64,000 nt of DNA from Hesseltinella vesiculosa (taxonomy: Eukaryota > Mucoromycota > Mucoromycetes > Mucorales > Cunninghamellaceae). The DNA is taken from contig MCGT01000023.1 in NCBI GenBank assembly GCA_002104935.1, positions 186,001 through 250,000 on the forward strand, read 5' to 3'. Positions 529 through 48,834 of this stretch are shown in pieces; the first letter of the stretch is position 1, and every line of letters starts with the position of its first letter. A program made the translations under genes and the position numbers. The notes under the pieces are model-generated. The model saw only the letters and a list, made by a program, of their open reading frames with translations, did not search any database and had not been told where the DNA came from.

Positions 529-3500
529 ATGTTTCTAGATTGGATTGCTCAACTCGACCTATTGGATCATGACCCTCGTAAGCAAAGCACTGCAAGACAT
601 CATCGGAAGCTCACCTGTCCGTCGTGTCTTTTTAACAGAGACCAACATCTTGGCGACGTTGCCACTGACCACCCGTCGGATAATCCTGACTGATATTAAC
701 AAATTCTTGCAAGCATCCAATTCACCCAACAATAAACACGGTCCTGATCCATCCATCTTCTCTTCACCGGCCCATGTCAAATGGTATATGGAGGTGGTGG
801 CCCAAGGTTTTGCATTGCCGCTGGAAGACATGGCGATCACCAATGATGACATTACTATTTATTCGCACTGGCTCTTGGAACCTCAGCGCCGGCCAGTTGC
901 TGTTGCTGGATTGGAGCAAGAATTCTATCAACTGGTCTTTCAGCATTTCTCGCTTTTGTTTGAACCTCGTGTCTTCCACTCCCCTGCCCGTGATCCTCCT
1001 CCGCAATTCCCTTCCCAGCCCAAGGATCGAACCTCTCCCACCCCGCTGTCGCCGTCAAGCTTTAAACTGACTGTTTTGCCTGCGCAAGCCTACAGCAGCG
1101 GCATCCTCCCATTCAACACCCCCAACCACCTTCACTCGTCTCCATCTCGTTCCTCGTCACAGCTTCACTCTGAACCAAATGCCACTACCGCTCCCTCCAC
1201 CACACCCTCGGCTTCCACCGCACTTGCTAACAGCAACAATGCCAATGACCTGCCATCTTCTTACCAGACTGCTGTCAACAATAATCCTGCCGCAAAGGAC
1301 GCCTTGGCACCCTTGGTTCAGCGGCACATCGATCTTTGCAAACGAGCTCTTGCCGTCATTACTACAGCCGGACGCACGTTGGCGCTCTCCTCTGAAACTT
1401 GGGCGTTGCTACTCAAAGTTATGCTTGGCGTCACCGATTACCTGCTCAAAGAACCGACGGGCGAATCTTCCGTCAATGGCGTCAAGAACATGTCCGACGA
1501 GCTTTGCCTCCCACTGCTGAGGGTAACGACTCCTTATCTTTCAGCAGAGACCTCGCTCCTAAACCTTCTTCCATTTGTTTTTAGGTACTCTTTGAGCTGT
1601 GGCTACGCTCCAAAATAAGCCAAGTGGATATGTGGAATATGCTGAAGGCAAGTAGGCGGCGACATGTCTAAATAAAACCCAGCTTCCAACCCTCGCTGAT
1701 CTTTGTTCAAGTTAGAAATGCTTCATGCGATGGACACATCGACCCCAAGTCATTCAATATTGGAGCGCGATCTGTTTAGGTTTGACGCACCGTGTGATGC
1801 ATCAGATCTATGGACCTGAAGAAGGTACAGAATCCGTCATTCTGCCTGGCGAAGTCACCAATGTCAAACTGGACCTACCTGATGAGGTTGTCACTTATGT
1901 ATGGCACCGCATCTTGTACCTTACCCCATCACCTGTGACATTGCCGTCCTTGAATTTTCATCTGGCTATGAAAGGCGTGGGCGACATTGTAGATGTACTG
2001 AACCGTGTGGGCCTGCGGCCTTCTGCTGCCACGCCTCTGAGCTTTCAAGACAGCTGCAGTGCGCTCGGAGTGGATGCCATATGGACCAAGACCTCCCCCC
2101 CTGATGGCAACACCATCTTGAACATGTTTGGTTCCATACTGTTTGACGCCTGTGCAGTGGCATCAGATGTCGGTGACCTTGAACGACAGCAAGGCAGCGC
2201 CGAAGCTATCGGGGCCCTTTGCAAGATCTTCAGCCGACCTCAACCGTCTCGACCGTTTGACCGTACCTACCTTGAGCGGTTCTACGCATCCCTTAGCTTG
2301 TGCCTCAAGTCTGACATGTGCTTACCAACGATTTTGATAAACGGTATGGACCTGTTTGCTGCCGACCTGAATGGGATCCGTATCCTCGCACCAGACGTCG
2401 TGGCTGCGATCAAAATGGTCATCCCCAAAGTCCAGCTGGATATGCACGCTATTCCGCTTCCGCTAGACGCCTTGCGCCTCGCTGCTCTCAAGATCCTTGC
2501 CACCATCATGTGCATCCCTAATTACTATGAATTTGTCACCCTCAAACCTGGCTGGGAATGGGACATGCAAAACACAACTGCACCGGCCATGGGGGAACAA
2601 GAAGAATGGGTGTCCAAATTGGTACGTTTCTATCGAATTAGATGATATATGATCTATCCATGCTGACCCATTTCCTCGATTTAGATTCGAACATTGTACA
2701 GCAGCGATCACGAAGATGAAGTCAACCGCCCTTATACCAATGTAAGGCTCGCTAGTCTGGATGCCTTTGCACGTCCCTTTCTGACGATCTTTTTTTTTTT
2801 TTTTTTAGCTGAAGTTTTACTTGCTGGAACTGCTGCTCACTGCTTTTCAAACCGAGACGTCTTCGTATAATATGCGCTATATCCTGCATTTGATCAACGT
2901 CTATGTTGTTGAAGACGTCTCATTTTGTCCTGGGCTTGTGGGCACAGTCATAAAGTTTATTCAAGACAAGGTAAAATAGCCAGTGTCCATTCAGGTGAAT
3001 CAGCCTCTGACGCTCTCTCTCTTTTTTTTTTTTTTTGGCCAGATCTTGACCATGCAGCTGCCATCGGATGTCTCGCTGGTCGCTTTTGATGTGCTGATGG
3101 AATTTGTCGATCTTTACGATTACGTCAAGAGGGAGAGCAAGGTAAATGATATGCTGGTCAGAAAATGAACCATAGCACCTGAGCTTTTTCTTTTCTTCAG
3201 AATATTGCGCGTGAGCTGGTACTGGCCCTTGCAAGATACGTTGACTCACTGATCAATGCACGACGACTGGTATGTTATGCGCAGGGATTTTCATCTGAAA
3301 GCTACGCAACGATACTCATATTCTTGTAAATTTGGCTTCCAACAGGTCCATTCCTACCCATTGATCGTCCAAGCGTACGACTGTATGATCAAATGGGTCC
3401 TTGTAAGCCAATGGATTGTGGATGACCGCGATTGCTATCAAGCTGTGATTGCCACTCTGAGCAAAGGCATCTCGGTGATTGAACGCCCCATGGATCATAC

Positions 3501-8534: not shown

Positions 8535-11500
8535 GTCGTTAGGTAAAAGCAGCGAAAGAAGAGAGAAAGAGAATGAGAGAAAAAAAAACGAATGGTGAGA
8601 AATTTATAAGTGTCACTGACATTTTCCCATTGAAACACCGATGGGATGGTTTTTTTTGCATTCATGAACATTACAATCATCATAGAAAACCCAAGCCAAC
8701 CCTTATTTCACTCGATTTAGAAATAACCTTAATCTGGAGGTAGAAAAGTTGATAACCAAGGTAGCTTCTTGGATGGTGGAAGATTTTTCATGAGGAAAAA
8801 AAAATAAATAAAGCCACAAGCCTTTTGCTGGGCACCAAGTGGAGTGTGGATATTGAAGGGTCTTTGACTCTCATTGATCGAGGATCGAGGGAAACAACTC
8901 CATTCAGGGCAAAAACAAAAAAAGAAAATTTTTTCACTTACCGCCTCGTCCCACTGGTTAGCTTTCTTTCCATTGCGCGTTTTCCCACGCTGATCCTTTC
9001 AGCGCTCATTACCCACATCATTAGCATTCTATCTACCCTGCCCACCATCATCACTGAAGAAACAAAAAAACAAGTGATTTGCTTAATCGTTTAAAGTTCT
9101 TCTTTTAGGTAACAATGCTTTTCACTATGTGGGACATTGGAAACGTCTTAAAATTAGGCAGCTTACACAAAAACGATGTGGAGGTCCCGGAAAAAGGAAG
9201 CAGCTGAAGCCTTTATTTGGGAATTTTTTCCAACTGTACCCTTCAGGGTTTCCCTTTTTCCGCTCACAATGTTTGGAAATCAGGTATTACCCTGCATTGT
9301 TGCTTTTTCATTTCCCACTGTCAGTGCCAATAAAAAAAATTTTACGTCCTGTTGCGCTCCAGACCAAAAAAAAAAAAAATCATCGACCTCGACCTTTTTA
9401 TTTTTTATCCCGCAAGCACGCACCCCATGGAGAAGGTAAAAAAAGGAGGGGAAGCTTAGGACCCTGAGGATTCCCATGCTATTCATTATACCCAGTAGAA
9501 AAATATCGTGGGTAAAGCCAATGCTTGTGAACAATTTTGCCCAGGGGGGGATCTTGTTGCACATCCTTGTGAGGCTTAGCCATTGGCTCTCTGTTCACAT
9601 GCTTACCATTTTACATCTGTCGGTTGCCTGGAATGGAAAAGCCAGCGTTGTTCCTGAAAACAATCCAATCGTGTAACCAAGCCGCTCACGATTACCTCCA
9701 TTGCTTGTTGGATCGTGTTTCCACTTCTCTTGTGGTGCACCATACCTGTCGTTTTGAAGGGAACTCACTTACGTCTACAGCGAAATCTGTAACCGTAAAA
9801 ACGGTTGGCTCTGTTGAGTCTGGACTCGTGGGTTCGGTTCTTTTTTTTTTACCGCGGGGTGGAAGCGAAGTGACGTTTTGAGCAAAACCCAGCCAGGTCG
9901 ACATGTTTCACTTTCAGGAGGAGGATCTGACGACAAGGCACGAAAAAAAAAAATGCAGCTCGTCACGCCAAGCTCCATACAAATGAAAGCGCTGATTGAA
10001 TCGATGTCACGCCGTCGTTGCTCAGCTTGAAAAGGCTCGATCAGGGATCCACAGAAGAGAGCACGTGCACTCTGTTGAGTCAATTTTGTGAGGTGCTAAT
10101 TGACATTTTCAGGCACCGCAACTTCCAAAAAAGGTCGCAAAAGTGTTTTGCAGGGATCAAACATGGTAAAAAATGAACGAAATCGGTGCCCAATGGTAGA
10201 GCAAGTCAGATGAAGATAGAGGTGGTCAGGCGATATCACATGGAGAATGATGAGTAAATTCTGAGCAGGCGACTCCCAAAAGAGGAAGTTGACTCGACCA
10301 ATGCTGGGGCTGTTCTGACATGGCAATGGGAAGATGTGGGTACATTGAGCTTCAGGGCACGTGAATCATGGTGCAGCAGATCAAAGTTTTTTTTTTTTTT
10401 TTTGCATAGTACGACAGCACCCCATCGTTCAAAGCGATAGCTTCTTTGACCCAAATGACTCTTGAGAGCAAGCCTTGGAGCGATGGAAGTCTTCAGGCTG
10501 AGGTATCAACATCGTCGAGGGCATAGTATCTTCCTCCAATTGATCCCCATGTCTCATTTAACAAATCCATCGTCAAAATTGTCTTTGATATTGATCACAA
10601 AGTGGAAGGAGTAATGGGAAGTATGATGAAAAATCCTACTATGATTGGGTTTTATGGGACGAAAGTGGGGAGTGATGGGATACAGTATGTGCAGCAGTTT
10701 CAGTAAAGATAGAGATGTTGGGCTGACGTTGCTGAACTGTAAGAGCCAGTTGAAATCACGTCTTGTCCAAATCTACCCGTTGGTAATTTTGTTATCAAAG
10801 GCTTTCATAAAAAATATCAGCATCCAATCTCACCATGCCGTTCCAACAATGAATTTTGCCAGCGTACTATGCTTATTTCATTCACCTGGCTTTGGTATTT
10901 TCATGGTTTTTTTTTTACCATGTTCCGATGGTGATTGCAGCCAGCAAGGATCGCGCCGCCCCAGTTGCGTCTCTGAAAGGATTTGAATGTTAGGACAGCC
11001 GAGGTAAAAAAAAAACACTCACGCTTGAGACTGTTCACCAATTTCCGGTTTGCCATGATGCCAGGCGAGGGTCCAGGATGAGTGATGGTATGGCTGTGCT
11101 TGATATCCATGTCATTTTGGATATTGCAGGACCTCGCAATTGTCTTGATAATCATGCCGGTGAGAAGAGCCTCCGATAATCTTGAACCCAAAATCAAGGT
11201 GGAGTTTGCCACTACGTTTCTGCGGTGAATCCTTGACAGTAGAAAATTGGTTCTTTGATAGAATACTTCATTTTCGGTTGAAATTGCTCTTTAGAGTGCT
11301 GTAATGAGAATTGTCGAGGGCAACGAAGCAAAGCGTTGGGTTTTCGTTGCCATGTTGACAGAGTTATTGCTTGACAATCCAAGGAGAGGTATAATGCATA
11401 GGCGCTTGAGATCCTAGGCTTGGCTTGGTGTAGGTGTTGCCCCGCATTCGCTTTAACGATCATTCCAGTGATAACTGCCATCGATCATGCTGTTTTCAGC

Positions 11501-15986: not shown

Positions 15987-17644
15987 ATGTTATATTTAAC
16001 AGATGATGTTGGGTTGCTGCCCTTCTTTTTACCCCTAGGCGTGATTGGGTTCTATCGTTATTTGTGGTATTTCATCAAACTGATCGCCTGGTTGGTGTAC
16101 AAACCAAGACGGCCAAAAGCCAATCCAACTTATTTACCTGAAGAAGATGTCACGATTATTGTACCTACCATCGATGCCGGTGATGAATTCAAAATTGCAG
16201 CTCGAAGTTGGTTAAGTAGGTCCCTATAAAAATAGGAGAACAAAGATCAAAAAAAGGCTTACCTGGTTTTATTGGCGATGTTAGAATGCCGCCCCAAAGA
16301 AATCATCATTATCACTGAAACCAAGATGCGAGAACCATTGCAAGAATTAGCCAACGAAGTAGATCCCGCACGTATCCGCGTGTTGACCGTCCCTAAAGCC
16401 AACAAACGACTGCAAATGGTCGAGGGCGTGAATGCTACCAACACTGAGCTTTTGGTCTTTGCCGACGACGATGCCATCTGGAAACCCACGATGCTCGAAT
16501 ATATCCTCGCTTGTTTTGAAGATTTGAAAATGGGTGGTGTCGGCACCTCCCAGACGGTCCACGCTGTCGATCCCAATGGCCACCAAACCCTGTGGGAAAT
16601 TCTTGCAGGCTACCGCTTGACCTCCCGTAATATCGAAATTGCCGCATCTACCCATATCGACGGCGGCATCTGTTGTCTGTCTGGCCGAACAGCCGCCTAC
16701 CGCACCCTGATTCTTAAAGATCCTGCCTTTCAATACTGCTTCACCAACGACCTGTGGCTCGGCAAGTACCCGCTCAACAGTGGCGATGATAAGTTCCTGA
16801 CCCGATGGATGCACTCTCACGGCTGGAACACGTATGCCCAGGTCTGCTCAGAAGCCGAACTGTACTCAACCTTTAAAAACAACTGGCGCTTCCTGAAACA
16901 AGTGCTGCGTTGGACTCGCAACACTTGGCGCTCGGACTTCCGGTCTCTCTTCACCGAGCGATATATCTGGACTCGTCACCCCTACGTCGCCTTCACCATG
17001 GTCGACAAGCTATTCAATCCACTGACATTGCTTGCTGGGCCAGTGCTGGTGGCTACCTTCTCTGCTCTCCAAGAAGCCCGTGCCGGGCCGACCAACAAAC
17101 CTTTGCCTCCTTGGAACATTGCTGTCTCGTACATCTGCTGGCTGCTCGTCACCCGCGGCCTGAAACTACTGCCTCACTTTGCTAAACGCCCTCAAGACAT
17201 CTGGGTCCTCCCTTGCTGGCTGATCTTCAACTACTACTTTGCCATCATGAAAATATATGCACTCTTCACCTTACATGTCACTGCATGGGGGACACGTGCA
17301 GGTAAGAAAAATTTGATTGAACGCCCTCCTTTTGAAAAAGGGGCAATCCTCCTCGAGACTGATCCCCGCCCTTTTTTCCTTCCCCGCTAGGTGTCGGCAC
17401 AGAATTGGCAGCCGATATCAAACGTCAAGGTGAACTCGAGTCTGCCATGGATCCCAACATGAAAATTGAAATGGATGACCTAAATGGATCGAACGATAAG
17501 GAAATGCACAAGCAATATGAACAACAACAAGCCCAGATCCAACAATATTACCAGGACCAACCCGAAGCTATACCTCCTCCACGTGGAGCACAAACCGACC
17601 CTTTTTGGAATCATGACGAACAGCGCCAGCATTTAGTCGCTTGA
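15987..17644 (+). CDS. CPS1: Family 2 glycosyltransferase, Cps1-like polysaccharide synthase
   Basis: Predicted 499-aa membrane-bound processive glycosyltransferase, related to the fungal Cps1 group (Cryptococcus Cps1 makes hyaluronan). Exons 15987-16215, 16285-17301, 17391-17644. One membrane segment lies near residues 8-35. The GT-A domain follows: EDVTIIVPT, then VFADDDAIW with the DDD around residues 137-139, DGGICCLSGRTAAYR, the general-base region NSGDDKFLTRW and the processivity motif QVLRWTR (Q-x-x-R-W). Three to four further hydrophobic segments and a Gln-rich acidic tail follow. All catalytic motifs are intact. The first splice was chosen at GTAGGT (16216) because the stronger-looking GTTAAG upstream would create a stop. 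The sugar product cannot be told from sequence. Confidence 0.92.
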
Positions 17645-19981: not shown

Positions 19982-21874
19982 GTACTTAATTTTGGAGGTG
20001 ATAAAATCGATATATATATAAAAGATCGTAATTGAAAGTCAACGACAAAAGGCAATGAGGGTAAAAAGTCAGCAAGTGTAAAAAAGGAGGGAAATGTCAA
20101 TCCAAGATGAGAGATTAGTACAATGCAAAAATGTGTGATGCAAACGCAAGAAAAGAAAAAGTAGAGGAAAGAAGAAAAAAAAATAAGAGCGACCTTTTTG
20201 AAGCTCAGCATTTTTTCGATCGAGATTTTTCAGTTGTTACCCATGCTCTTGGACGTTGGTTTTCTAATTGCTTTTCATTTTTTTTTTTTTTTGTACAGTA
20301 ACCAGTGTCAAAATACCATGGCTAATCTATCCAGACGAAATACTGATCCTTTTACGATGTTGGACTGAGAATCCAGCCGTTGTCATGGCAATCAAGGATA
20401 AACAGAACTGGCTGGCAAGCATTTTCACGAGGAATGGGGCAGGAGGGAAAAAGTGGAGAAACTGAAAGAAAAGAGCAAATGAAAAAAAGAATCTCGTACT
20501 TGCATCATGGTAGGAGAAAAAAAAAAGGGGGGAATTCTTTTTTGGATGACTTCCCAGGGTGTTGGGTTTTTTTCCCACTTTTCGCGCGTCGCTGGCAGTT
20601 CCCACCCAGTAAAGAATCCAGGTACCTCCTCCATGTGCACGCTCGCATTGTGGCCTTGCCAAGATGAAAGAGAATGCAATAACCATGAAAACAATATCTC
20701 GAATGGCAGAATGGCGAGGAAAATATAACCAGCTGACTCGGTGTTCGTTTTGCATCGAGACTCTTCTCGTCTAATGGGACTTCTGGGGCTTGTCTTGTTT
20801 ATCATTGGGTTGCGTTTCGATCCAATGGAATGCAAGCAGACAGGTCTGCATTTTTTTTATATATATAAACTGCAACACCTCCTTGCGGGGGTGTATTTCA
20901 AACGAACCACGCGCCATCAGGTTTTTCTATTTTGCTCACTTTGGAGCGATGCCTTGTTGAGAGGATTGGCCAAAAGCTTTTTTTGCACAACTTAAAAAGG
21001 GATGGTTGAACAATAAAAATACAAGGTTCTTGTGAGACAACACTCAGCTTTTTAGAAGAACGCATGAACCACAGCAAAGGATGGGTGGGGGGCCGATAGT
21101 AAAAAAAAAAAAGGCGTGGCCATTTGATTAATCAGCAAAAACAGTGGCCAAAGTCACAGATGGCTGTGATCTTTTTTATTTTTGTTTTTGTTAAATGGGA
21201 TACATTGGATGACACACTTTATTATTTGTTGCAGAGGGAAAGAGTGAGAGATGGTAGGACGATGACCGGGAACCACGGGAAAAGGAAGGGTTCCCCGGAA
21301 CTGCTGGATCATTGTTTTTTCGAGTTGGATTTCGTTTAATTTCCATTATGGGATGCAATGAAAAAAAAAAAACAGATCAAAAACCGCAGCAATCTCGTTT
21401 TTTTTTTTTCAACCTCGGCTGTTTCGCTTTGATCATTCAAGCCATTCATTGACCTGTAGATTGTAGTAAGGTGGAAAGAGTGGTGACCAAAAAAAATAAA
21501 AAATGGGAGAGCGCAGAAACCAGACAAATTGATTTGTCGGTGTAAATTCCTATTGTCCAAACATGGCACACGTGAGTCATCCAAGCTTGGGGCCGAGTGA
21601 TTTGAAAAGAGGCAAGCGAATGGCAGGCACACCAATCAAATCCACCCATTCACTTACCTTGGGCAACATCCCAAAAATAGTCAGTCAGGCTGACGATTCA
21701 TTCGCCGCGTCAAAAAAAGTGAAGAACACCAGGTTCTTTTTTTCCAGGATCATTTTCTTTTTCTTTTTCCCTTTTGCTCTTTTTTTTTTAATACAAACTC
21801 TCCAATCTACCCCTCTCCTTTTTTTCTATTCTACCTTTTTTTCCCCCTTTATTTATGCACTTGACATTGCAAGC
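19982..21874. other. 1.9-kb divergent intergenic region
   Basis: Separates the GSK3 and Fungal_trans gene starts. It holds several A/T homopolymers, TATA-like stretches near 20009-20020 and 20855-20867, and a long T/C-rich leader (21730-21860) in front of the transcription factor. Open frames on both strands are short and lack recognisable motifs. I looked for upstream exons encoding a Cys-rich zinc cluster for the downstream regulator and found none. Confidence 0.55.
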
Positions 21875-24795
21875 ATGGGGGCCACAGGTAGACAACGCAA
21901 CACTCGTAAAACCTCCACAAACAAGCGCAAAAGCAAACTGCCCATGTCCGAAGAAGAGCGGGCAGCAACACTAGAGCTCAAGAACCAACAGCATGAGCTC
22001 GAAGCCTTGCAAATTACGTTTTATGAAATCGAAGCCTGGATTGAAAAAACGAGCCCCATCTTGAATCGCATGACAAGCGAACTTTGCAAAGCATCGGAAC
22101 AGTTTGAAAAACGACGATCACTTCAACCGCCCCAGCCCCAACCTGTTGCCACCACCTCCAACAACCACCTGCGTCTCCCTCCCGAGCCCATCCCCACGCC
22201 TTCCTATTCCTCGCCTAGTATTTTGAACAATACCCAACATGATCTGCATTGCCCAATGAAGTGGTCCATGTCCTTCCAGCCCAACAACTCCATGCGGCTG
22301 GAGACAAATATCAAGTCTGTCGACGAATTGGTCGAAGCCGTCCAGCAAATCCGTCTGTTGACCAACGATGACCCTGCCTTGCCCGACCATCCCTTCCCTA
22401 GCCATCCCTCCTCCTATTTCAGTCGACGCCGTTCCCGCCATACCCAAGCCGACGACGAAGAGGACGACGATGACCTCCTTTATGACGATGCTGGCGCGTT
22501 GCTGTCGCCGGTCTCCAACATCACCATGGCCACTGCTTGGACCAACATGGAATACTGGCGTGAAGCCATCCGCCGCCGGCCCCGCATCTGCCTCGAAAAA
22601 TACAAGCACCACGACATGAACCTCAGCTGCCTCACCAAGGATGTGTCGCCCAACGTCATGCACTACATCTGCCACCTCTACTGGGACTGTCTGCACCCCA
22701 AGTTCTCTTCAGATTGGATGACGTTTTGGGATCGCTGTGACGAGCCTCAGCGGAACCAGCTGTGCATCGACTCTGGGCTGGCCATTGTCTTCATGCATGG
22801 AACGCGTCATCACAAGGATATCTGTGCCAATGCCCACGACATTGCTTTTTTTTACTATGACCGAGCCCGAGAAAACCTCATGGACTACTTTGATACCCCC
22901 CACTGTGCCACCCTCGAAACCCTGCTGAACTTGTCGATGTTCTGCATTCTGTGCAAGCAACACTCGCAGTCGCGAATCTACATCGGCCTTGCCATTCGCA
23001 TGATGTTGGAAATGGGCATGCATCGCCGAAGCTCTCTGCCAGCCGACAACCTGATCCTACGCAAAAAATACCTCAAGTTCTTCATGGTCCTCTATTACAA
23101 CGATATCCAAAGCTCCCTGTACTCGGGCGAGCCCACCCAGGTCAACGACAATGAATGCGACATCGACTTTTATGAAGTCATCACCCTCAACACCAACCTA
23201 CAGCAGTCCAAGCTGACCGCCTATGACGACAAGGTGCTCGAAAAGGAGGTCTTCTTTGTCCATCTCATGGCCCTCTCCAAGATCGGCAAACAGACTGTCG
23301 ATCTCATCAACGATTACCAATGCCAGCCGCATCCTCTTCCACGTAAGAGTTTTGGCAGAGAGAGAGAGAAAAAAAAAGAAAGAAAGAAAACCAACGTATT
23401 CATCACCTTTTTTTCTTTTTCACCACAGACATCGTCAAGGATGACTTGCCTTATCGATGGGCTAAGCGGATCCAGGCACTGGAGATTGAATTGGCCCAAT
23501 GGTACAATCGACTGCCAGACTACTACCGCGTGTCTATGGAACCCAAATCGCCCCCTGCCAAGTTCCACCAGCATCCTTCCCATGGCGAATACCCTCATAC
23601 ACCCATGTGTGCCGGCGACCTGCGCATGCAATCTGGCTTAATCTTGATGCTGCAGTACCAAACCCAGTGGATCCTCTTGCACAAGACCTTTTACAACAGC
23701 GCCACCTCTCGCCGATGCTCCCCCGTCTCGACCATGGCCTCGGCATTTCCCCTGACGCCTACTGCTACCCATGGCCCGGGCCTGTCGTCGCCGCCCCTCT
23801 CCTCGCCCATCTCGCCACCTACCTTTGCCAACAACCACAGCAGCTCATCGTCCACCGCCTCCGGCTCCCCTTGCTGGCAACCCACCCAGCGCCAACAATG
23901 GCATCGCCAATGCAACTCACGCTCCGAGATCGTGTGTCTGGATGCTGCCAATCGCATTGTTGTGCTGGCTGAAACCATTACCGAGCAATTTGGCTGGTGT
24001 GTTTGCCAGCAATTCATCAATTGCATCTACCACGCTTCGACCATCTTTTGCCGCCACATCATTGATCACAACAACAATGCGCCTGCTGCCAAGACGCCGA
24101 CACGCCGCCATGCCGATGCTATGCTGCAGCGCGTCGTGCGTGTGCTGTCGTTCAGCACCATGCATTACCACGGTCTGCCCGATGACCTGTGCGCCAGCCT
24201 GAAGGACTTGCTGCAGCAGCATGGCGTGCTGCCTACCGAAGACCAGGCGCCGCCCCAGCCCATGGACCATGAGATGGATGGCCTCTTGACGGTCTCGCTC
24301 GAAGACGCCTTGATGGAGCCCCCCATCACGGCCAACATCGAGCCCCCGACCGACTATTTCTCGAGCCGACCACCCCCTCCCATCTCTACCGCAGCCGTCG
24401 ACCGACCCACCGACGCTTCCTTGTACATGCCAAGCTCACCTGTCCTATCACCCTCTTCATCCCCTACCAATCATGGCTCCACCACGTCGCCTGATGCATC
24501 CGGCTCGCCCTTCCAACCGCCTCCTCCCAACACCTTGTTTGAGTTCATTGACACCCTGCCCAACTCACCCCACATGTACCAATACTGCCTGGCCCAGCCG
24601 CGCATCCGCTCCAGCTCTAAATATCGATCGCTCATGGCTGGCGAGTCACCCACCGAAGCCATGCTGTCCATCAAGATGAAGGACCCCGTCGTCGACGACA
24701 GCCTGGCCATGGAGAAGAACAGTGCCTTGTCGGCCAGTTGGCGACACAAATTCTCCTCTCCTTATGTGGCTGCTGGCAACCAACGGATCATCTAG
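21875..24795 (+). CDS. Fungal_trans (middle homology region) regulator lacking a Zn2Cys6 cluster
   Basis: Predicted 944-aa protein. Exons 21875-23342 and 23429-24795. The first 30 residues are very basic (RQRNTRKTSTNKRKSKL), followed by a probable coiled coil (about residues 35-75), a Pro/Ser linker, an acidic run (DDEEDDDD), then the fungal-specific transcription-factor domain. That domain shows AFFYYDRAREN, LETLLNLSMFCILC and IYIGLAIRMMLEMGMHR, continuing across the intron to LILMLQYQTQWILLHKTFYN. The C-terminus is Pro/Ser-rich. Family members normally start with a Zn2Cys6 DNA-binding motif; no CxxCxxxxxxC pattern is visible here or upstream. It may have lost the cluster, bind DNA through the basic region, or act as a partner protein. 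Target genes unknown. Confidence 0.88.
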
Positions 24796-27434: not shown

Positions 27435-27715
27435 GGTTGTAAATCTAAAAAAGTGATTGAAATCAAAAGAAAGAAAAGGCAAAAAAAAAAAAAAAAAAGA
27501 TCCACCCTTTCAATGCCTGACGTTAAAAAAAGAAAAGATAAAAATATCTTGGATACACAAAATGAGGATTGGCCTTGACCAGTATAAACGAATGTTTTGG
27601 GCTTGCCATTCAAGTGCATGAATTGTCCTAGTTGAGCTGTCATCCGAACAGGGAAGGCTGCTCTTGGGTACCCATTTGGCGGGGATTTCCTTTTTTGGAC
27701 GTTGTTTTTGGTTTG

Positions 27716-28197
27716 GAGAAAAAAAGCAGAATGAGCACAAACTGAATCAAATGGAACAAGAGGCTCACCTGTTTTCTAAAAAAAAAAATAAACGAGACAC
27801 TGCGCTAGCCATACTTGCATCGGTACATTCAGAGGTATTCAACAAGAGCCGACTACGCAGTATGGCACGGTTTCAGTCCGGCCAAGAGGAGGGGGGGAGT
27901 TGCGGAGGTGAGACGTTGCCTGGGCGGGTGAAGACGGTAGGACAGCGCCCCAAGAAGATGGTGTTCCAGGCAATGGCAAGTATGTTTCGAGAGGCATTTT
28001 GGTCGCGGTGCCAGTCTGTGTTGCACGTGTTGCAGTGCTTGACAGAGTACAACTTTTGATCAGCTTCTTGACTTGCAGGGATCGTCGTGGTCGTCATGGT
28101 GTTGGTTGTGACAGTTTTGTGTGTGGCGTTGGGCCCCTCGTACGTGGTGATCGTTTTCTCAACGTGGGAATGGCGGTTGTGGGAAGCGGAGGTGGAG
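27716..28197 (-). repeat. Left arm of long inverted repeat (about 98% identical core)
   Basis: Read on the minus strand, this matches 32424-32909 with only a handful of differences. A stretch of over 110 nt around 28080-28197 is identical. The match covers the last coding part of the Fanzor gene, the stop codon and about 160 nt of 3' flank, including an A/T homopolymer and a conserved stretch near 27730-27750 (GAGCACAAACTGAATCAAAT, one strand). Confidence 0.85.
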
Positions 28198-28346
28198 AGT
28201 CCATTGCGGGAAAGAGGACAGGTAAATTCGACGGACGCCACTTCCGGGAACTGCAAGTTTGGAGAAAAACGTCGCCAACCTCCTTCAGAGTGTGCCCTTA
28301 TCAAAACGTGCGGTGCGAAATCACTCCTTCCAGCTTTACTACACAT
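27873..28346 (-). pseudogene. Truncated Fanzor copy, C-terminal zinc-finger/RuvC-III part only
   Basis: Open frame of 157 codons on the minus strand ending in the same C-terminus as the main Fanzor gene: KHCNTCNTDWHRDQNASRN, then the identical tail. It lacks everything before the zinc finger, including the RuvC-I Asp, so it cannot be an active nuclease by itself. Upstream of the shared tail, the part matching the first zinc knuckle is degraded (a CSKAG where the intact gene has CSACG). It also lacks a 147-nt in-frame block (49 codons, Thr-rich) present in the full copy. The left junction of the missing block shows CTCC microhomology. Confidence 0.8.
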
Positions 28347-28499
28347 GCCATCCGTTAACCGCCATCTCCAACTATGTTCCTCTCTGCTTCCACTCTTGCC
28401 TCTCGCTCTTCCATTCCTAATTCTATTTTCTCATCCAATTCTAAAACGAAAAAGTCGGCCGAGTAAAAGCGATTCAACATGCTTTTTCTCTTTAGCTTC

Positions 28500-29060
28500 A
28501 ATAACGCTACACGCCACTTTTGATCGCACTCACTATAGAGGTAGGCCTCTCATGAATAGCCTTATATAAGAAGCGAAAGATTGGGTACTTTCAGCGACAG
28601 GGTAAACTTTTCAAAAAAAAATACGTAGCGCTTGAATCACGTTCTTGACAGAACGTTTATTTTTGACCAATGTAGGCGAGTCCAAACAAGAAGATGATAA
28701 CGATGAAGTAGCTAGGCCATCCATTCATTTTATCAATAGCAAAGCACAGTCAAGCAGGAGCAGGAGCAACTATGCTTCCTGCCCTCCCCGTCTTTTGAGG
28801 TTTGCCAATCACCAAACACCTTGTGATCGGCGTGTTTGCTCCTACTCTGACAGACAAATATAGTCTCTTCTCCCGCGCCTACCCACATCTCAATATCACC
28901 CCTCTTGGTGGTGTCCATCGATGGAAAAATATGGACAGATTCAAAAAGATATGGCCAAGCATGAGCTCCTGGGTTTTCAAGAGTTTGTGGTTGAATCATT
29001 TCTGAAGAAAAATGCTGCATAATCTGCACCAACCTCTTTGGCAAATAAAAATGGAAACCA
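28500..29060 (+). pseudogene. Decayed N-terminal Fanzor copy
   Basis: Nucleotide and frame-broken protein similarity to 29130-30060 in the same orientation. Matching parts include CACTATAG-GGTA near 28533, the shared TTATATAAGAAG, a KK-K---FQ-QGKL--KK coding stretch, and a later block encoding VIGVFAPTLT/YPHLNITPLGG-like peptides (28820-28920). Internal segments are missing (about 400 nt relative to the intact copy) and there are several frameshifts and stops. Roughly 75-80% identity where aligned, so this is an older copy than the inverted C-terminal one. Confidence 0.75.
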
Positions 29061-29129
29061 GGTTTCAAATTTAAGGTTTTCTCAGCAAAGAGACCTCTGC
29101 GCTTCTTCTTCCTGCTTGTCTCATCAACA

Positions 29130-32100
29130 ATGCTACATGCTACTTATAATCGCACGCACTATAGGGGTATGGCCCCCCATGAAATAGCCTTATATAAGAA
29201 GAAAAAGGTTGAGCATTTTCAGGTACAAGGTAAACTTCCCGAAAAAAAAATGTTGCGCTTGGTTCCTGAAAAGCGTTTGTTTTTGATCGCTGTAGATGAT
29301 CTCGAAGAAGACGGCGATGATCAAGCTAGTACTGATGACAGCGATCATGACCATGATTCTGAGAGCGATGAAGACATTGTTGACGATGAAGAAGCCGGGC
29401 CGTCAACCCATTTTATTAATACCAAACGCACAGTCAAAAAGAAGCAATCGCTGGCGGTGAAGCAGTCCAAGAAACTTGCGAAGCTTGAGGCTGAAATGGA
29501 TATGGTGGACAATGACAAGGTTGGTCCCTCAAGACGCTCCTACACCAGAAAAGATGCTATATTCCATGCCGAGCTTGGGCCATTCCGGCGGTTCTCGAGA
29601 AAAGGCAAGCTTGCCAATGGTCTCAGCCTTACTCATGGACAAAAGCAGAGCTTCATTGGCGTGACACGTGATGTCGTGCGATGGGCAACACGGCTCCGAT
29701 TCTTACACTCTCTGTTTTTGAAGTTTGTGATCGTCAAACTTTTCGACGATGCCACACCCTTCCCCAAATGTCTCTTTCACCCGCGGTTGTTCACAAGTAT
29801 CTCGCAGCTCTTCCTTGGCCAGCCCATCACCAACCAGCCGGTGATTGGTGCGTTTGCTCCTACCCTGACAGCCATGTACGATCTCTTCTCCCATGCTTAC
29901 CCGCATCTCAACATCACACCCCTTGGTGGTGCCCATCAAGGCAAAAAGTATGGGCAAATTCAAGAATACATGGCAAAGCAAGAAGTCGTGGACTTTCAAA
30001 ACTTTGTCGTTGAAAATTTTGTGGAGCGGCTGTGGTATATCACCCAAAAACGATTGGAGATGGCTGTCAAGGTAAACATCATTGCCTGGCCTGAAAAAAG
30101 AGACGTAGCCGATTTGACACTCCTCATCATCCCCTCTCACTATTTTTTTTTTTATTTCCAGGGCCTCAAAACCTCCGACGTGCTGTCCATTGCCAAGTTC
30201 ATCGTCAACTCCGTTATCAAAATTGAAGAGGAAGAAGCCATTAGAACCATTGAGTATGAAATCACTGGTGATTTGCCGACAACTATGAACCAGCTGAAAG
30301 AAGATATTTCGGTGGATTTGAAGAGCCTTGCTGCAGTGGTCGCCATAGGCAAATGCTCTCCAGGCCAGCCATCCACTGATGAAAGAAGAGGCCATGTTGA
30401 CAGTGCCATGCTGGTATGGGCCTGCCACGCCAAGTTGGGCTGTAGAGATACCTTGGACACCCTGTTGGCTATTGCCCGCCACTTGCAATGCCGCGGTTAC
30501 ACGACCAACGCTTCGGACGGGCCGCCTCTGCTCCCGATCAAGGAAAAATACATCACCACACACCGACATCTCTTTCTCCACCTGATGATCGTCATGGACA
30601 AGTTTGCCGCAGATGCAATGCTGACACAATCAAAGCTGCCTCAGAACCACAAGAAATGGCGAGCAAATCATGGGCGTATTATGAATTATCAAAGCTGAAA
30701 GAGTGCAAAAGCTTGAAGCGAAGAGTTCGCAGTCGCCTTGTCCGTGCCCTGGCTCAGGCCGTCAACACTGGTGCCTTTTTTGACAGTGATCGGTGGCCGA
30801 GTTTGACGGAAGCAACCAAGCATGTCCTCTCCCGACTTGTGTCAGTCACAAGCAAACAAATCACCTGGTCGAAAAAATGCAACCAACGACGAGCCAATGC
30901 ACCTTCGTTTTTGGCTCGCTGCTTTTATCCGCATGAGCACATTCGACCACCAACCATACGCCTCCTCGGTGCCTATCCTACACCATCCTTCCGAAGCATC
31001 CACTTAACTCTCGATGACAGTGCACTGCACCCTCTCCTGATCTCGGCTGGTCTCCGTTCCCAATTTGCAAAGCCTGGCTGCACAAATGCCATCCTCAAAC
31101 CTGGCTACTTTGTCAACGCAGGCTCACTCCGAAAGTAAGTAGCGGTAGAAAAGGACGGTGGCCCCCTATTTTTTTTTCGTCTCAAATTTTTCTCACATTG
31201 ACAAACTCTCATTCAACAATAGTGTCACCACTCACACAGGCAAGAATATGTTTACCGGCATGATCACCACAGATGGGTATTCAATGACAGCTATCTATGC
31301 CAAGTCCAAGCCGTCCAAGCCGCTTCCGCGCGTCACCCTGAGTGACATTGAGCCATGGGAATGGCCGTATTTTTCGCCGTGGGGCCTGGACCCTGGCGAT
31401 CGTGACCTAGTCGTGGCTGTCGACAATTGCGACCCATTGATCTACGACGCCCCCAATTACCTAACTGGAGAGCAGCTTCAAGACTTGTCTCGCCAAGACC
31501 CCAGCCTACAAGTCCCCCGGCAGTATGCCGCCTACAAGCGCCCTCATCAGGTACGCAACTTTTCCTCTTCTGAGTATCGCGCCAAATCCGATTCTCTCCA
31601 CCGGAAGCTCCAAAAATGGAGAACGAAGAGTGGCATCGCATGCCTTGAGTCGAGCATACCCACCTACCGCACCGTTGACCCCGTGGAATTGGATGCGTAT
31701 TTACGATACATGGACGCGCATGCTGACACGTTCCTGTCTTTCTATGCTGGGGTTCGAATGGCCAAGGCAAGATTCCAAATTTGGCGATGGCAGCAGATCC
31801 AAGACTCTGAACTGGTCAATATCTTCCTGACGGGTGGGTCGAAATACAAGGCTGATCCTGTTGGCCGCATCACCGAGACCGAACCAATTCCAAGGTAAAA
31901 AGGAAAGGATGTGACTTACTGGCATAGGTAGCTCACAGCAAACATTTTTTTGTAGAAGGAACAAATGGAGGCGAGCCCCAACGCGACATGATGCCACCAA
32001 ACTTCCGGTTGTATTTTATGGTGCTGCGAATGTTGGATCGTCCGTATTCCGTGGCCGAAAAACTCAGCATGGTCTGGCCAAAAGGACCCGGCAACTCTTT

Positions 32101-32748
32101 GAAAAAGCAGATGCCCAGTGTCGCCTGCTTATGGTTGACGTCGATGAATACATGACTAGCCAAATATGTTCGGCCTGCGGCGACCACTCCCTCCAACAGG
32201 CCTCTGTTCCCCAAAACATGCAGTTCCCAGAAGTGACCTCCGTCGAATTTACCCGCCCTCTTTCCTGTGATGGGCTCTCCAAGGAGAAGAAAACGACCAC
32301 GACCACGACCACCCCTGACAGCACCATCGTCACCACTACAACTACAACTACACTTGTGACGAATGTGCCTGCATCTGATGATCCCGGCCGCCATAGCGGT
32401 ATCACTTCAGTGGACCATGATTCCTCCACCTCCGCTTCCCACAACCGCCATTCCCACGTTGAGAAAACGATCACCACGTACGAGGGGCCCAACGCCACAC
32501 ACAAAACTGTCACAACCAACACCATGACGACCACGACGATCCCTGCAAGTCAAGAGGCTGATCAAAAGTTGTACTCTGTCAAGCACTGCAACACGTGCAA
32601 CACAGACTGGCACCGCGACCAAAATGCCTCTCGAAACATACTTGCCATTGCCTGGAACACCATCTTCTTGGGGCGCCGTCCTACCGTCTTCACCCGCCCA
32701 GGCAACGTCTCACCCCCGCAACTCCCCCCCTCCTCTTGGCCGGACTGA
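29130..32748 (+). CDS. Fanzor (eukaryotic TnpB-like putative RNA-guided nuclease), one apparent frameshift
   Basis: Predicted about 1,126 aa. Exons 29130-30071, 30162-31134, 31223-31894, 31956-32748. Their sum is one base short of a whole number of codons, because the frame shifts between about 30645 and 30662 (before ASKSWAYYELSK). Features: acidic N-terminus, long helical region, RuvC-I motif PWGLDPGDRDLVVAVD (Asp codon 31389-31391), the LSFYAG...IWRWQQIQDSELVNIFL helix, VVFYGAANVGSS-VFRGRK, VDEYMTSQICSACG with the first zinc knuckle (32167-32178), second knuckle CNTC (32588-32599), and RuvC-III HRDQNASRNI (Asp codon 32617-32619). The motif order is the Fanzor/TnpB C-terminal one. An approximately 135-residue Thr-rich insert sits between the two knuckles, which is unusual. 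The start at 29130 is uncertain (29250 is an alternative). The first intron is 90 nt and stop-free. Activity is unknown; the frameshift may be real decay or a sequence error. Confidence 0.82.
30645..30662 (+). other. Single-base frameshift in the Fanzor gene
   Basis: Upstream of this point the conserved reading frame is the one starting at 29130. Downstream, the convincing helical sequence (YYELSKLKECKSLKRRVRSR) is in the next frame. No GT..AG pair can bridge them. One missing base in the AAGAAATGG context would restore continuity, and the total exon length is exactly one base short. Confidence 0.7.
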
Positions 32749-32909
32749 AACCGTGCCATACTGCGTAGTCGGCTCTTGTTGGATACCTCTGAATGTACCG
32801 ATGCAAGTCTGGCTAGCGCAGTGTCTCGTTTATTTTTTTTTTTTTTAGAAAAAAGGTGAGCCTCTTCATTCCATTTGATTCAGTTTGTGCTCACTCCGCT
32901 TTTTTTCTC
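32424..32909 (+). repeat. Right arm of long inverted repeat
   Basis: Partner of 27716-28197 in opposite orientation. It contains the last 108 codons of the Fanzor gene and 161 nt after its TGA. Beyond 32909 the two copies share nothing obvious, so this is probably the 3' end of the element. Confidence 0.85.
32749..32909 (+). ncRNA. Candidate omega/fRNA (guide RNA) region at Fanzor 3' end
   Basis: Non-coding 161 nt between the Fanzor stop codon and the inferred element end, conserved in the inverted copy at 27716-27872. In described Fanzor/TnpB systems the guide scaffold is transcribed from the 3' end of the nuclease gene and its flank up to the element boundary. No covariation or expression evidence is available here, so this is inference from position and conservation only. 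Confidence 0.35.
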
Positions 32910-34694
32910 GATTTAGAAATAAATGTGGTTTCCTTTCTTCATCCGCCCTTTGCTCTCGATAATTCTTTTTTTTTTACAGTACAAGCGCTACCATGTTTGG
33001 AAGCTTGTGAATTTATTTAGATCAAATCATAATAAGAGTCACCCGTTTAGTCAAAAAAAATGGAAGGGAGCAGCGGCAAAATGGCGAGTGTTTGAGGCGA
33101 TGGTCCATCTCTGCACAGATCCTGCGACAGAGAGCAATGCCCCACATCTCCACGAGTGTATATTTGCGTTTCTGTATCATGTTCCCAGCCTGTTCGTCCT
33201 TGTTTTGCACGGCTGATGCTAGGCGTTGAATTTTTGGCTGGGGACACCCGAACTTTGCTGATCCACTGGATGTTTTTGGCATCCTATGTTCCAGCCTATG
33301 TGGAAGAATTGATATTGATCCGCCCATTTCATCATGTTTTACAGCACGATTTTTTTTTCCAGAGGCAGCGAGGTACCAGTCGTCATGCCCGTAGAAAGCG
33401 ATGAGAGACTGGATCTCTATCAGTCCACCCAAATCAAGCAGCAAGGGCAGCCGATCTGCCTGACAAAAGCGAGGCGTCTATTTCTAGTTGCAATACGAAG
33501 CTGGATTTGCCAAGATGTTGGCAGGTGATTCTGGCTGACATCCTTTAGCCAATCAGAAGCGGCATCCATAGGTTGAGCTTTGTGTGGACGACGACGGCGG
33601 ACTTTCATCGAACCTCTCTTTTTTTTTTTGCCCACGCTTTTTGTCTGGTAGCTCTGGCGTGGCATTTGTGATGGAGACCTGTACACGATCATGATTGATC
33701 AACACATGCTGAAATAGTTCCGGGTTTTAGGATTTAGCTCATCCAGCACATGATGGGCTGTGGTTCCTGCGGCCGAGGATGGATTTTCCACAACTGCGTG
33801 CAAGGCACTGGCTGCGGCCGACTTGAGCGCAATCGCTGCGCCAAAAAATGCACTGATCTATTTATTTATGGCTGTTGTGTTCTATCATGCCGTGATAGTA
33901 AATCGATACTCTTGCGTAGGCTCCACATTTTAGAAAGGATCATCAAGCAGGTAGGATGAATGCGCGCAACTGGCAAAGGAAAAAAGAAAAGAAGCGTGAT
34001 GGAGAGATTGGCTCAGGGCCAAGACTTTGTGGCACATGAGGCAAAGACATGGTTAAGGTTGGGTCATTTGCAAATCTGCACGAACAACGGAAGGATCACA
34101 AACACAGGTCAGCTTCTGTTTTTTTTTCTTTGCCCAGGCGTGGGAGACGTCAGAGGATTGCTGCGGTAAAAGAGCGAGGACACTCGGCCGCGTTGGCTTT
34201 GGTGCCCTCGTTTGGTAGAATAAAAGAAGTGTTGCAAGAAGACAAAGCTGGTACAATGTTCAGGAGGTGCAAGGAGAAGGGGGGGCCGTGTACGGAAAAA
34301 AGGGGGGTTGAGTGATGTCATCCAGACGAGATCCAATTTTCAGTTTTTTTTTTTTTTTTTTAAAAAAAAAAAGGTCACGGGCAAGCCAATGATCCATTGA
34401 TGAAAATAGAATCCATAGGCCAAAATCATGATGGACGAAGCAAACGAAAGGCAAGACATTCATGCAAAAAAAAAAAGGGAGAGGGGCCGGTAACAATTGG
34501 AGGGGCCAAGTGCTTCTGGTCTAAATTTGATTGGCATGCAAGCAAAACTCTTATCCGATCAAAAATGGATCCAATCGGATGTCGCAGCCAAAATTAGTGA
34601 AAATGCAGCCAAAAAAAAAAAAGTTTTCGTTTTTTATTCTCTCCTTTCTCTTCTTCTCTGCATTCTTATACCTGTTACTCATTTTTTAGACAGC
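32910..34694. other. 1.8-kb intergenic region
   Basis: No recognised gene. Minus-strand frames at 33022-33444 and 33420-33692 together give peptides such as SWQIQLRIATRNRRL that look more protein-like than their surroundings, but I recognise no family and the frames are broken. Homopolymer tracts at 34343-34358 and 34361-34371. The last 70 bases are a T/C-rich leader for the next gene. Confidence 0.45.
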
Positions 34695-40453: not shown

Positions 40454-42292
40454 ATGTCTGACGCTGCTGCTGCCAACGATAAGAACCTCCACAAGGACCC
40501 CGTGACTGGCGAAATGATCTCCAAGTCGTAAGTGCTTGTTTCTCAATAAAGAGCGCGTTTCCTGATCCACCTTCCCCCCCTTTTATTAGCGAACTCAAGC
40601 GCCGTACAAAGAACCGTGAAAAGGAAGCTGCCAAGGCTGCCAAGGCTGCTGCTGCTCCTCCTGCTGCTGCTTCTGACAAGAAGAACGATGAAGATGCCGA
40701 AGATGAATTGAACCCCAATGTAACTCATTTATTAGAAAACACTGTTGAACATCGCCTCACCCCCCTTTTTTTTTTAGCAATACTTTGAACTTCGCAGCAA
40801 GACCATCCGTAACTTGCGTGAAACCAAGGCTCCCAACCCCTATCCCCACAAGTTCCACGTCAACTCAAGCTTGCCCGAATTCATCGCCAAGTATGGTGCG
40901 TTGGAAGCCTCGCAAACGTCAGACGAGCTTGTCCACGTGGCCGGCCGTATCCATAACAAGCGTGCCTCCGGTGCCAAGCTCCGTTTCTATGACTTGCACG
41001 GTGAAGGTGTCAAGATCCAAATCATGGCCTCGGCTGCCGACCACGAAGGCGACGACTACAGCGAAGTGCACGATTTGTTGCGTCGCGGTGACATCGTCGG
41101 TGTCATCGGTCGACCCGGCAAGACCAAGCGTGGCGAACTGTCGATTTTCCCCAAGCAAATCCAACTATTGACGCCCTGTCTGCGCATGTTGCCCAAGGCC
41201 CATTACGGCTTCAAGGACCAAGAATTGCGTTACCGCCAACGCTACCTGGATCTGATCATGAACGGTGCTGTCCGCGACAAGTTCACCACCCGCTCCAAGA
41301 TCATTTCCTACGTGCGCTCCTTCCTGGAAAACAACTATGGCTTCTTGGAAGTCGAAACCCCCATGATGAACATGATTGCCGGTGGCGCCACGGCCAAGCC
41401 TTTCGTCACCCACCACAACGACCTCAAGCTGGATATGTTCATGCGTGTGGCTCCTGAGTTGTACCTCAAGATGTTGACCGTCGGTGGTCTCGACCGTGTG
41501 TACGAAATCGGCCGTCAATTCCGTAACGAAGGCATCGACATGACCCACAACCCCGAATTCACCACCTGTGAATTCTACATGGCCTACGCCGACATGTACG
41601 ATCTGATGGATATTACCGAAAAGATGATCTCCGGCATGGTCTACTCCCTCTTTGGCAAGTACAAGATCCAATACCACCCTGAAGGCCCCGACCGCCCTGC
41701 CCTCGACATCGACTTCACCCCTCCCTTCAAGCGCCTGGACATGATCACCACCTTGGAAGAAAAGCTCAACGTCAAGTTCCCTGCCGGTGACCAACTGCAC
41801 TCTGCCGAAACCAACAAGTTCTTGAACGACTTGCTGATCAAGAACAACGTTGACTGCTCCGCCCCTCGCACCAACGCCCGCATGCTCGACAAGCTCGTCG
41901 GCGAATACATCGAAGTCGACTGTATCAGCCCCGCCTTCATCACCGGCCACCCCATGATGATGTCACCCCTGTCCAAGGTCCATCGCGACCGCCCTGGCTT
42001 GTGTGAACGTTTCGAATTGTTCGTCGCCACCAAGGAAGTCTGCAATGCCTACACCGAATTGAACGATCCCTTTGACCAACGTGAACGCTTTGCTCAGCAA
42101 GCTGCCGATAAGGATGCTGGCGACGATGAAGCTCAGATGATCGACGAAAACTTCTGTGTTGCTCTCGAATACGGTTTGCCTCCTACCGGTGGTTGGGGCA
42201 TGGGTATCGATCGTATGGCCATGTTCTTGACCGACTCCAACAACATCAAGGAAGTCTTGCTCTTCCCTGCCATGAAGCCTGTCGAAGAATAG
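40454..42292 (+). CDS. KRS1: Lysyl-tRNA synthetase, class II, cytosolic
   Basis: Predicted 572-aa enzyme that charges tRNA-Lys. Exons 40454-40527, 40590-40719, 40778-42292. A Lys/Ala-rich N-terminal extension ([20 protein letters not shown]) typical of eukaryotic cytosolic LysRS is followed by the OB-fold anticodon-binding domain ([20 protein letters not shown]). The class II catalytic core has motif 1 ([10 protein letters not shown]), motif 2 ([15 protein letters not shown]) and motif 3 ([15 protein letters not shown]). All key residues are present. Codon bias is similar to actin, suggesting high expression. The ATG is 209 bases after the Ash2 stop codon. No mitochondrial presequence is visible in this form. 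Confidence 0.98.
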
Positions 42293-46407: not shown

Positions 46408-48834
46408 TTAATAACCGACGCCAGCCATGATACCATAGCCAAGGGTGATGACCAAGATGGCAGCAACGACACTGGTGATACCACCGACGAGCATAAAGTC
46501 CTTGGAGCGCAAATAGGGCTTGCCGGTGGGGGTTTCCAGCATGACGGCGGTGAGATTAGGGAAACCGCTGATGGGCAAGGCTTGGCCAGTGGAGCAGGCA
46601 AGACCAGCACCCATGACGAGGAGGTTGGGGTGAGGAATAGGCAAGTTGTTGCCGACTTGCTGGACAATGGGGATGATAATCAAGGCAGCAACCGTGTGGG
46701 AGACAAAGGTGGAGAACACCAGGATCAGCAAAACAAACACAGCCAAAATGGCAATGACGGGCAGGTTTTCAATGCCATCTTTGATGCGCATGGCAATGTC
46801 CTTCAGAAGCCCCGAGGTGGTGACAGCTTCACCGAGAGCCATGCCACCTTGGGCCAAGACCACAACAGACCACAGGAAGGCATTGAGGTCGCTCTTGTTC
46901 AAAAGACCGGTGCCAAAGAAGACGAACAGAGGGATGGCAGCCACAATGCCAGGGTCGCCAAGGGCATAGCTCAGGCTGCTTTCAGCACACCACAGAGCAA
47001 TGGTAAGGATGGTGATGAACAGGATGAAGTATTGGGTGCCGTTGAGCTTGGTGCTGGTTGCCTTGACGGTGTTGAGGTGAGGAACAGAGCGGTCGGGACG
47101 GTAGACAAGGAGCAGAAGAAGCCAGCAGACAACCAAGGAGATGACACCGATGGGCAGAGCAGCGGCAAACCAGGTGCCCCAGGAAGGGTTCTTGAGGTAC
47201 TGCATGGTGATGATGTTTTGAGGCGACGAGATGGGGGAGGCCATGCCGGCGATACAACAGGCCAAGGCAATACCGAGAATCAAGCAGGAGCCGACAGTCG
47301 AGTGATCAGGCAAAGTGCGCAAGATTGGGTTGATGAGCGAGAAGCACATGACAGGAGTGGCGACGTTGGAGATCCACATGCTGAGAAAAGCCGAGACAAA
47401 CATGAGAGTCAGCAGGACCCAGCGAGGACGGGTGCCGGCGCGGGACAGGATGTTGGAGGCAAAGGCCTTGGCAATGCCATACTTGGACAGAGCCGCGGCA
47501 AGAGAGAAACCGCCGAGGAGCATCATGATGGTGCCGCTGAACATGGAGGAGAAAACAGCCTTGGAAGCAGCCGAAGCGGTCATGGGTGAGCCGTCGGGGT
47601 TGCGCATCACGCCGAGCAGGACAACCAAGAAGGGGATCAGCATCGAGGTGGCATACAGAGGAATGGCTTCGGTAGCCCACATGACGGCGGCAAAGATCAG
47701 CAAAGCAAAGCAGTAGTTTTCGTACTTGTTACCAAAGGTGTTGACGGTCAGGAGCACGATGAAGACAACGATACAGAAGAGAAAGGCAACAAGCTGACGC
47801 AATTGCTCCCCGTTCAATTGGACTGGGCCATAACCATAGCGTTTCTGAGGGGCTTGGGGTTCCTTGACGTGCATTTCAGTAGCCTTGCGTTCTTGGCTGA
47901 TCATGTCACGCCACACAGTGTTGCGGTCAAAGCGGACTTGGTCCTTGAGGTGGATCTTCATTTGGCGCATGGCGATGCTCATGTTGCCTTGACAGAAGGC
48001 GTCGGCATAGAGCTTTTCGACACGGGAGATTTGCGAGCGCAGAGTGTCCAAGGTGGCAGGCATGAAGGGCCGGGATTCCAGAACCATCTTGCGCAGGTAT
48101 TGGTCACGCAAGTGCCCGTCGAGGACCTTGTCATGCTTCTTGAGGATCTTTTCAAAGGCAGTCTTGTTAAGTTCCACATAGGATTCCAGTTCAGACAGTG
48201 AAATGTACAAGTGGAGCAGTTGCGAGCGTTTGTCAGCGAGTTCTTGGACATGAGATGGCGCCTCGGAATGCATGGTGAAGCGTGATTCCATGGACAGGCG
48301 GCGACGATGGGCCGCGGTGAGTTTTTCGTCGGTCTTGATGGACGAATCCAACGTTTCCAAGTTGTACATGCCATTGTTGTTGGGGAACTGGTGAGCATCT
48401 TCCCTGTCGACAGATTCCAGGGCATTGTTCAGAGCATCCAAGCCATTGTACAGTTCCGTTTCCTTTTGGGTATAAAAGTCAAACACCTTTTCGAGCTGAG
48501 TGTCCAGCTGGTTCAAGAACGCCGATTCATCCACCGTCGACTTGCTGCCATGTTCTTCATCTTTTTCTTCAGATCGATTCAGAGCATCCACTTTTTCCTT
48601 TTCCAATTGGAAAATGGTTTTTTTCAAATGTTCATAACTATGAAGAAAGTAAATGTAAGCAAAAAAAAAAAAAAAAGACAGAAAAAAAAATAGAAGCGGT
48701 GAACCAAAAAAAGCCCACATTTGGAAGAAGGCTTGTTGGCCTGCGCAGTTGTCAAGGGGGAAGAAAACTTACGCCACATATTTATCAATCCATTCTGGTA
48801 CAGCATTAAACTGAAGCGCATGAGAGAACTTCAT
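46408..48834 (-). CDS. PHO91: SPX-domain SLC13/DASS phosphate transporter (Pho87/Pho90/Pho91 type)
   Basis: Predicted 763-aa low-affinity phosphate transporter. Exons in transcript order 48834-48773 and 48637-46408. The N-terminus MKFSHALQFNAVPEWIDKYV continuing to AYEHLKKTIFQLE is a canonical SPX start (inositol-pyrophosphate sensor). The SPX helices extend to about residue 290 with KILKKHDKVLDGHLRDQYL, the basic binding-surface helix. About 11-12 membrane segments follow, with DASS landmarks: MWISNVATPVMCFSLINPI (the SNT/AT signature), GMASPISSPQN and FVSHTVAALIIIPI. In yeast, Pho87/90 act at the plasma membrane and Pho91 at the vacuole. Which orthologue this is cannot be settled from this sequence; the symbol is provisional. 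Confidence 0.93.

Follow-up and report, generated by a model that had tools for sequence, protein, structure and literature searches.

A Fanzor-bearing element of Hesseltinella vesiculosa whose long inverted ends are probably copies of the nuclease's last exon

Introduction

Fanzor transposons have been known in Mucorales since 2013. They include ROr-4, PBl-3 and MCi-4, which are of the MuDR type, and MCi-2. All four are Mucorales transposons carrying a Fanzor1, as the element described here probably is too, and MCi-2 resembles it further in that its 3′ side is uniform and its 5′ ends vary (PMC3627910). However, ROr-4, PBl-3 and MCi-4 have target-site duplications (TSDs) of 9 bp, MCi-2 has no terminal inverted repeats (TIRs), and inverted ends made from the gene tail are not mentioned in the accessible part of that paper. 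Here we describe a Fanzor gene and the 5.2-kb element carrying it in a stretch of 64,000 nucleotides from Hesseltinella vesiculosa (Mucoromycota, Mucorales, Cunninghamellaceae; contig MCGT01000023.1, positions 186,001 to 250,000 of the forward strand; hereafter, the window). An earlier note on the window had reported the gene and overlooked the surrounding 5.2-kb element with its inverted arms.

The protein of solved structure whose sequence was matched best by the RuvC/TNB profile of the family, SpuFz1 of Spizellomyces punctatus (PDB 8gkh; profile match of 9e-14), is a fungal Fanzor1 carried by the TIR element Spu-1. Spu-1 is ∼2.1 kb long with one open reading frame and TIRs of 30-33 bp, whereas the Hesseltinella element is 5.2 kb long with five exons and coding-containing arms of ∼0.5 kb. 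Spu-1 also has "ghost" copies that lack the Fanzor and keep the guide-RNA end (PMC10432273). PpFz1 of Parasitella parasitica (PDB 9cf0), a Fanzor1 from another member of the Mucorales, carries an insertion in RuvC that binds cyclophilin (PMC11423790), while the large insertion of the Hesseltinella protein is a Thr/Ser-rich linker between two zinc knuckles. SfAV and related insect-virus Fanzor1 elements resemble the arrangement proposed here in being non-autonomous and in having the TIR and TSD within the scaffold of the right-end RNA (reRNA; PMC10711439), but their TIRs are of 13 bp and their TSDs of 4 bp.

Results

The Fanzor gene (29130-32748, plus strand) is part of what is probably a DNA transposon whose inverted ends of ∼0.5 kb are copies of the last exon of the Fanzor and its 3′ region. 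Two further copies of the entire 5.2-kb unit were identified: C16:316887-322102 (L009, on the same contig as the window; 98.1% identity by blastn) and C45:710234-715441 (L010; 96.7%). The three full copies sit in different flanks. In the window, the element consists of the following parts.

27716..32927, plus strand: whole element, 5.2 kb, from blastn against the two sibling copies
27716..28267, minus strand: left arm, an inverted copy of the end of the last exon (second zinc knuckle, RuvC-III) and the 3′ region
28498..28995, plus strand: decayed direct duplicate of the 5′ region of the gene (exons 1-2), between the left arm and the gene; direct repeats of 79-82%, blastn pieces of 76-77%
32207..32927, plus strand: right arm, the end of the last exon and the 3′ region; the outer part, 32424-32909, is homogenised

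The inverted repeats comprise 420 nt at 99% and shorter stretches, together covering 27716-28267 and 32207-32909; about 140 nt of the linker found in the right arm are missing from the left one. In public annotation the left arm appears as the hypothetical protein DM01DRAFT_1409033 (H. vesiculosa), residues 5-129 of 129 matching 27876-28250 on the minus strand. Judging by its sequence, this predicted protein is the inverted Fanzor tail and not a separate gene.

The last 179 nt of the element are found in at least 23 places in the genome. Opposed arm pairs without the full gene occur in C45 (0.45 kb), C7 (1.2 kb), C10 (0.43 kb) and twice in C78 (1.4 and 0.9 kb). The 20-mer ending in TAAATGTG has six exact places genome-wide, all belonging to the Fanzor family, and one more with two mismatches. 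Each of these six elements has one exact TAAATGTG end, after which the bases differ; the C78 element keeps it despite an arm identity of 85%. The opposite end stops 4-8 nt earlier in the four elements where it is readable (L009, L010, C7, and C78). The left end of the window copy lacks about 13 nt, and the C45:857 element is cut back even further. The two-mismatch end belongs to a degenerate relative at C85:243166-243852 (L043, L062), with fragments of exon 5 and of the arm close by. In the window itself, a further CTCGATTTAGAAATAA resembling the element end and followed by CCTTAATC lies at 8713 (plus strand), 19 kb upstream; it could be due to chance or be a remnant.

To describe the evolution of the arms, we compared both arms of each full copy, six in all, over 476 outer ungapped columns and 65 inner columns. 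Among the outer columns 28 are variable, and none separates left from right arms: seven distinguish the two L010 arms from all others, three do so for the two L009 arms, one has three states, and in 17 one arm alone differs (nine in the window left arm, five in L010 left, and one each in L009 left, L010 right and window right). By contrast, of the 11 variable inner columns eight split left from right, none is private to the two arms of one element, and three show other patterns. Fisher's test for these counts (outer 0/10 versus inner 8/0) yields 2e-5, a guide value only, as the columns are not independent. In the arm tree, the two L010 arms are sisters (96/91), as are the two L009 arms (94/88); only one of the 13 inner branches is well supported, and the arms of the short derivatives form no resolved groups.

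Long arms as a general Fanzor trait in this genome were ruled out, as five of the eight Fanzor loci examined (L011, L014, L016, L018, and L019) have no inverted pair of at least 40 nt. L012 and L017 gave other inverted pairs, and L013 belongs to the family of the window element.

The gene itself is best described by a model with five exons, predicted from the sequence and all on the plus strand.

29130..29229, plus strand: exon 1, start codon inferred
29230..29295, plus strand: intron 1, GT..AG, 66 nt; the siblings vary in length inside it, and the spliced L009 frame is open
29296..30071, plus strand: exon 2
30162..31134, plus strand: exon 3; compared with both siblings, the frame is shifted by one base near 30615
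31223..31894, plus strand: exon 4, with RuvC-I
31956..32748, plus strand: exon 5, with the shifted RuvC-II Glu, the split zinc ribbon, the RuvC-III Asp and the stop codon; matches PF07282

The four GT..AG introns are 66, 90, 88, and 61 nt long. The earlier note had proposed four exons and about 1,126 codons. Its four-exon model, which misses intron 1, was rejected: the copies differ in length near 29241, so that the siblings lose the frame if intron 1 is left in, while spliced L009 is open through all five exons and encodes 1,104 amino acids. In the window copy the frame is lost in exon 3, and the spliced reading then has 16 stops, so this copy is a pseudogene; in L010 the frame is lost in exon 2. 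As the comparison of the three copies showed, intact motifs did not indicate that the gene was intact. Recent activity of this very copy, which the earlier note had inferred from its intact catalytic and zinc residues, is not supported either, given the frameshift and a left end without the outermost ∼13 nt seen in the siblings. There is support for the family having been active recently, as L009 is open and its arms differ at one of the 476 columns. The ratios of nonsynonymous to synonymous divergence (dN/dS) are 0.44 for the window copy and L009 (Fisher p = 0.015), 0.27 for the window copy and L010 (9e-8), and 0.35 for the two siblings (5e-6). With ratios of 0.27-0.44, the protein was under selection during the divergence of the copies, two of three being broken at present.

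The last exon of the window copy matches Pfam PF07282 at 1e-9, over the Pfam cut-off, and PF07282 is hit by all seven aligned family members; the remaining three gene pieces scanned had no Pfam match above the cut-off. A profile built from the RuvC region of the sibling and five paralogues, with the frame of the window copy left out, matched SpuFz1 best in PDB, followed by mimivirus L79 (7.6e-5), PpFz1 (2.4e-4 over the whole chain, no single stretch passing alone), and GtFz1 (0.023). The same profile also matches bacterial TnpB and Cas12 relatives, while PDB searches with exon 4 alone or exon 5 alone gave no meaningful match. NCBIfam guided_TnpB was matched at 6.7e-6, but the 25.6 bits lie below its cut-off of 100. 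In protein searches, no protein among 2,796 candidates reached E ≤ 0.001 with residues 540-950 of the sibling, and profile A3 retrieved three proteins of 7,331 candidates, one of them being the window's own left arm. A structure predicted for exon 5 alone, without an alignment, had a pLDDT (predicted local distance difference test) of 44 and was unusable. The top PDB match is a Fanzor1, but mimivirus L79, a Fanzor2-type protein, is matched too; the carrier is a TIR element without a recombinase gene. The Fanzor/TnpB relationship proposed by the earlier note is supported by PF07282 and by the SpuFz1 match. By sequence, the gene encodes a real Fanzor/TnpB relative of a known kind, most like Fanzor1.

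The motifs listed in the earlier note do follow the Fanzor/TnpB order, and all are encoded on the plus strand. The window codons are 31389-31391 for the RuvC-I Asp, 32146-32148 for the shifted RuvC-II Glu and 32617-32619 for the RuvC-III Asp; the zinc knuckles CSAC and CNTC start at 32167 and 32587, respectively. A Fanzor hallmark is DPG at RuvC-I together with a catalytic Glu that precedes the zinc finger by six residues (PMC10711439). The L009 protein has D673-P-G at RuvC-I and E905 six residues ahead of C912, and the window copy has the same codons. L009 also fits the pattern D-X(125,275)-[TS]-[TS]-X-X-[C4 zinc finger]-X(5,50)-RD, as given in PMC3627910, with D673, T-S-Q-I-C at 908-912, two CxxC, and RD six residues past the second CxxC. 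The zinc knuckles are unusually far apart, at 136 residues, with 32 Thr and 16 Ser in the linker. A C12 paralogue (47-48% identity in the last exon) has a similar insert, which is absent from the two other families aligned (L014-L016 and L017-L018).

By analogy with known Fanzors, the right end likely yields an omegaRNA, with the following candidate parts.

32749..32927, plus strand: candidate omegaRNA scaffold, ending in TAAATGTG; fold z-score of -3.79
32928..32947, plus strand: predicted guide at the start of the right flank, following published Fanzor/TnpB logic

None of 200 shuffles folded as well as the window scaffold, and two of 200 did for L009 (z-score of -2.70). In all six exact-end arms and in all three opposite arms, the strand running on from the mRNA gives a better fold than the complementary strand; G-U pairs in a U-rich strand favour the mRNA sense by themselves. 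The terminal AAATAAAT closes the last stem in all six folds, and an exact terminus closing the last predicted stem is what an omegaRNA whose guide lies in the flanking DNA should show. Across the six exact-end arms 96.7% of cells pair, compared to 35-51% in slid controls, the structure having been taken from one of the six. Rfam had no match in 27500-33200.

Genome-wide, exon 4 had 98 matches and exon 5 had 102 (matches, not genes), which suggests that the genome carries several Fanzor families. L014, L016, L017, L018, L019, and L020 represent other DPG-bearing families with many copies, some of them nearly identical. Around the element, five of ten scanned frames had domain matches and are host genes.

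539-1615, plus strand: RALGAPB N-terminal domain
16236-17387, plus strand: glycosyltransferase 2
21533-23638, plus strand: fungal transcription factor domain
40778-42289, plus strand: class II tRNA synthetase (D/K/N)
46411-48768, minus strand: SPX and citrate/sulphate transporter

Discussion

In our reading, the right arm would produce an omegaRNA, with the last bases of the element closing its last stem and the guide read from the flank. The Fanzor made by an intact copy would cut the vacant site, and repair would restore the element; RNA-guided cutting by the Hesseltinella protein is what its relatives suggest. The movement itself would depend on a transposase encoded elsewhere or lost. Gene conversion would keep the arms alike, and the ∼140-nt length difference would mark its inner limit. 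This reading is favoured by other Fanzor1 elements with TIR and TSD inside the reRNA (PMC10711439) and by elements that have a guide RNA and no Fanzor (PMC10432273). Vacant sites were looked for with two right flanks, those of the window copy and of L010, which match only themselves.

Several results weigh against this reading. A plausible TSD, the 7-bp TGTGATG, was seen only in L009, one of four elements with both ends visible, and 45 of 2000 shuffles were equally good, uncorrected for four tests. No TSD was seen in L010, C7, and C78, and the ends of the window copy and of C45:857 are damaged; TGTG may be a part of the element or of a preferred target. No transposase was found, the genome's Mutator-like element (MULE) genes and Mutator TIRs lying outside the search. 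The arms of the window copy are unpaired in the tree, and its right arm has 5-6 mismatches to the L009 arms versus nine to its own left arm; hence arm homogenisation is shown for the two siblings, the window left arm having drifted. As for the RNA, none of 60 pairs shows a change in both partners among the six exact-end arms. A consensus fold computed from 13 arms, of which seven lack the full end, is a different one in which the terminal stem is missing and one of 35 pairs covaries.

The element could also be a non-autonomous Mutator-like (MuDR) transposon with ordinary long inverted ends and the Fanzor as passive, dispensable cargo. We regard this as possible, though not likely: broken genes in two of the three full copies and short derivatives without the gene fit this, but the single TSD is of 7 bp, the arms lie within the nuclease coding exon and the guide-RNA region, and dN/dS is below one in all three pairs. 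Rather improbable is an origin of the arms in one chance inverted duplication that spread with neither guide RNA nor functionally meaningful conversion. While the decayed extra 5′ piece, the mostly degenerate derivatives and the three of four elements with no TSD agree with such a dead end, the full copies in three separate flanks, the open sibling with purifying selection, and the exact end retained even by C78 speak against it. Assemblies are known to go wrong at near-identical inverted repeats, yet the separate flanks, the private indels of each copy and the 28 variable arm columns make an artefact very improbable.

Since each arm copies the 3′ guide-RNA region of the Fanzor, two omegaRNAs are possible. 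Both ends would then make one, directed into each flank, and the vacant site would be cut by two guides. In such a case a damaged end could be rebuilt from the other arm, which would explain why the outer arms do not drift apart. The left scaffold would be 4-8 nt short, and the terminal stem is kept in two of the three opposite arms folded. We consider this two-guide arrangement doubtful.

Transposon ends made from the catalytic exon of the element's own nuclease were not reported in the literature found, with most subscription papers and all supplements being outside the search; this locus may well figure in Fanzor lists already published. The probable transposon with Fanzor-derived ends bears on how Fanzors help transposons, as the guide-RNA region and a part of the catalytic exon are present in both of its ends. 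The zinc ribbon split by a Thr/Ser-rich linker is a further natural variant of the protein. One 27-Mb genome contains an open sibling alongside broken copies and derivatives that lack the gene, so that three questions can be put to the test: whether elements without the gene act as sources of guides in trans, whether one of the ends is a template for the other, and how the exact position of the right end is set.
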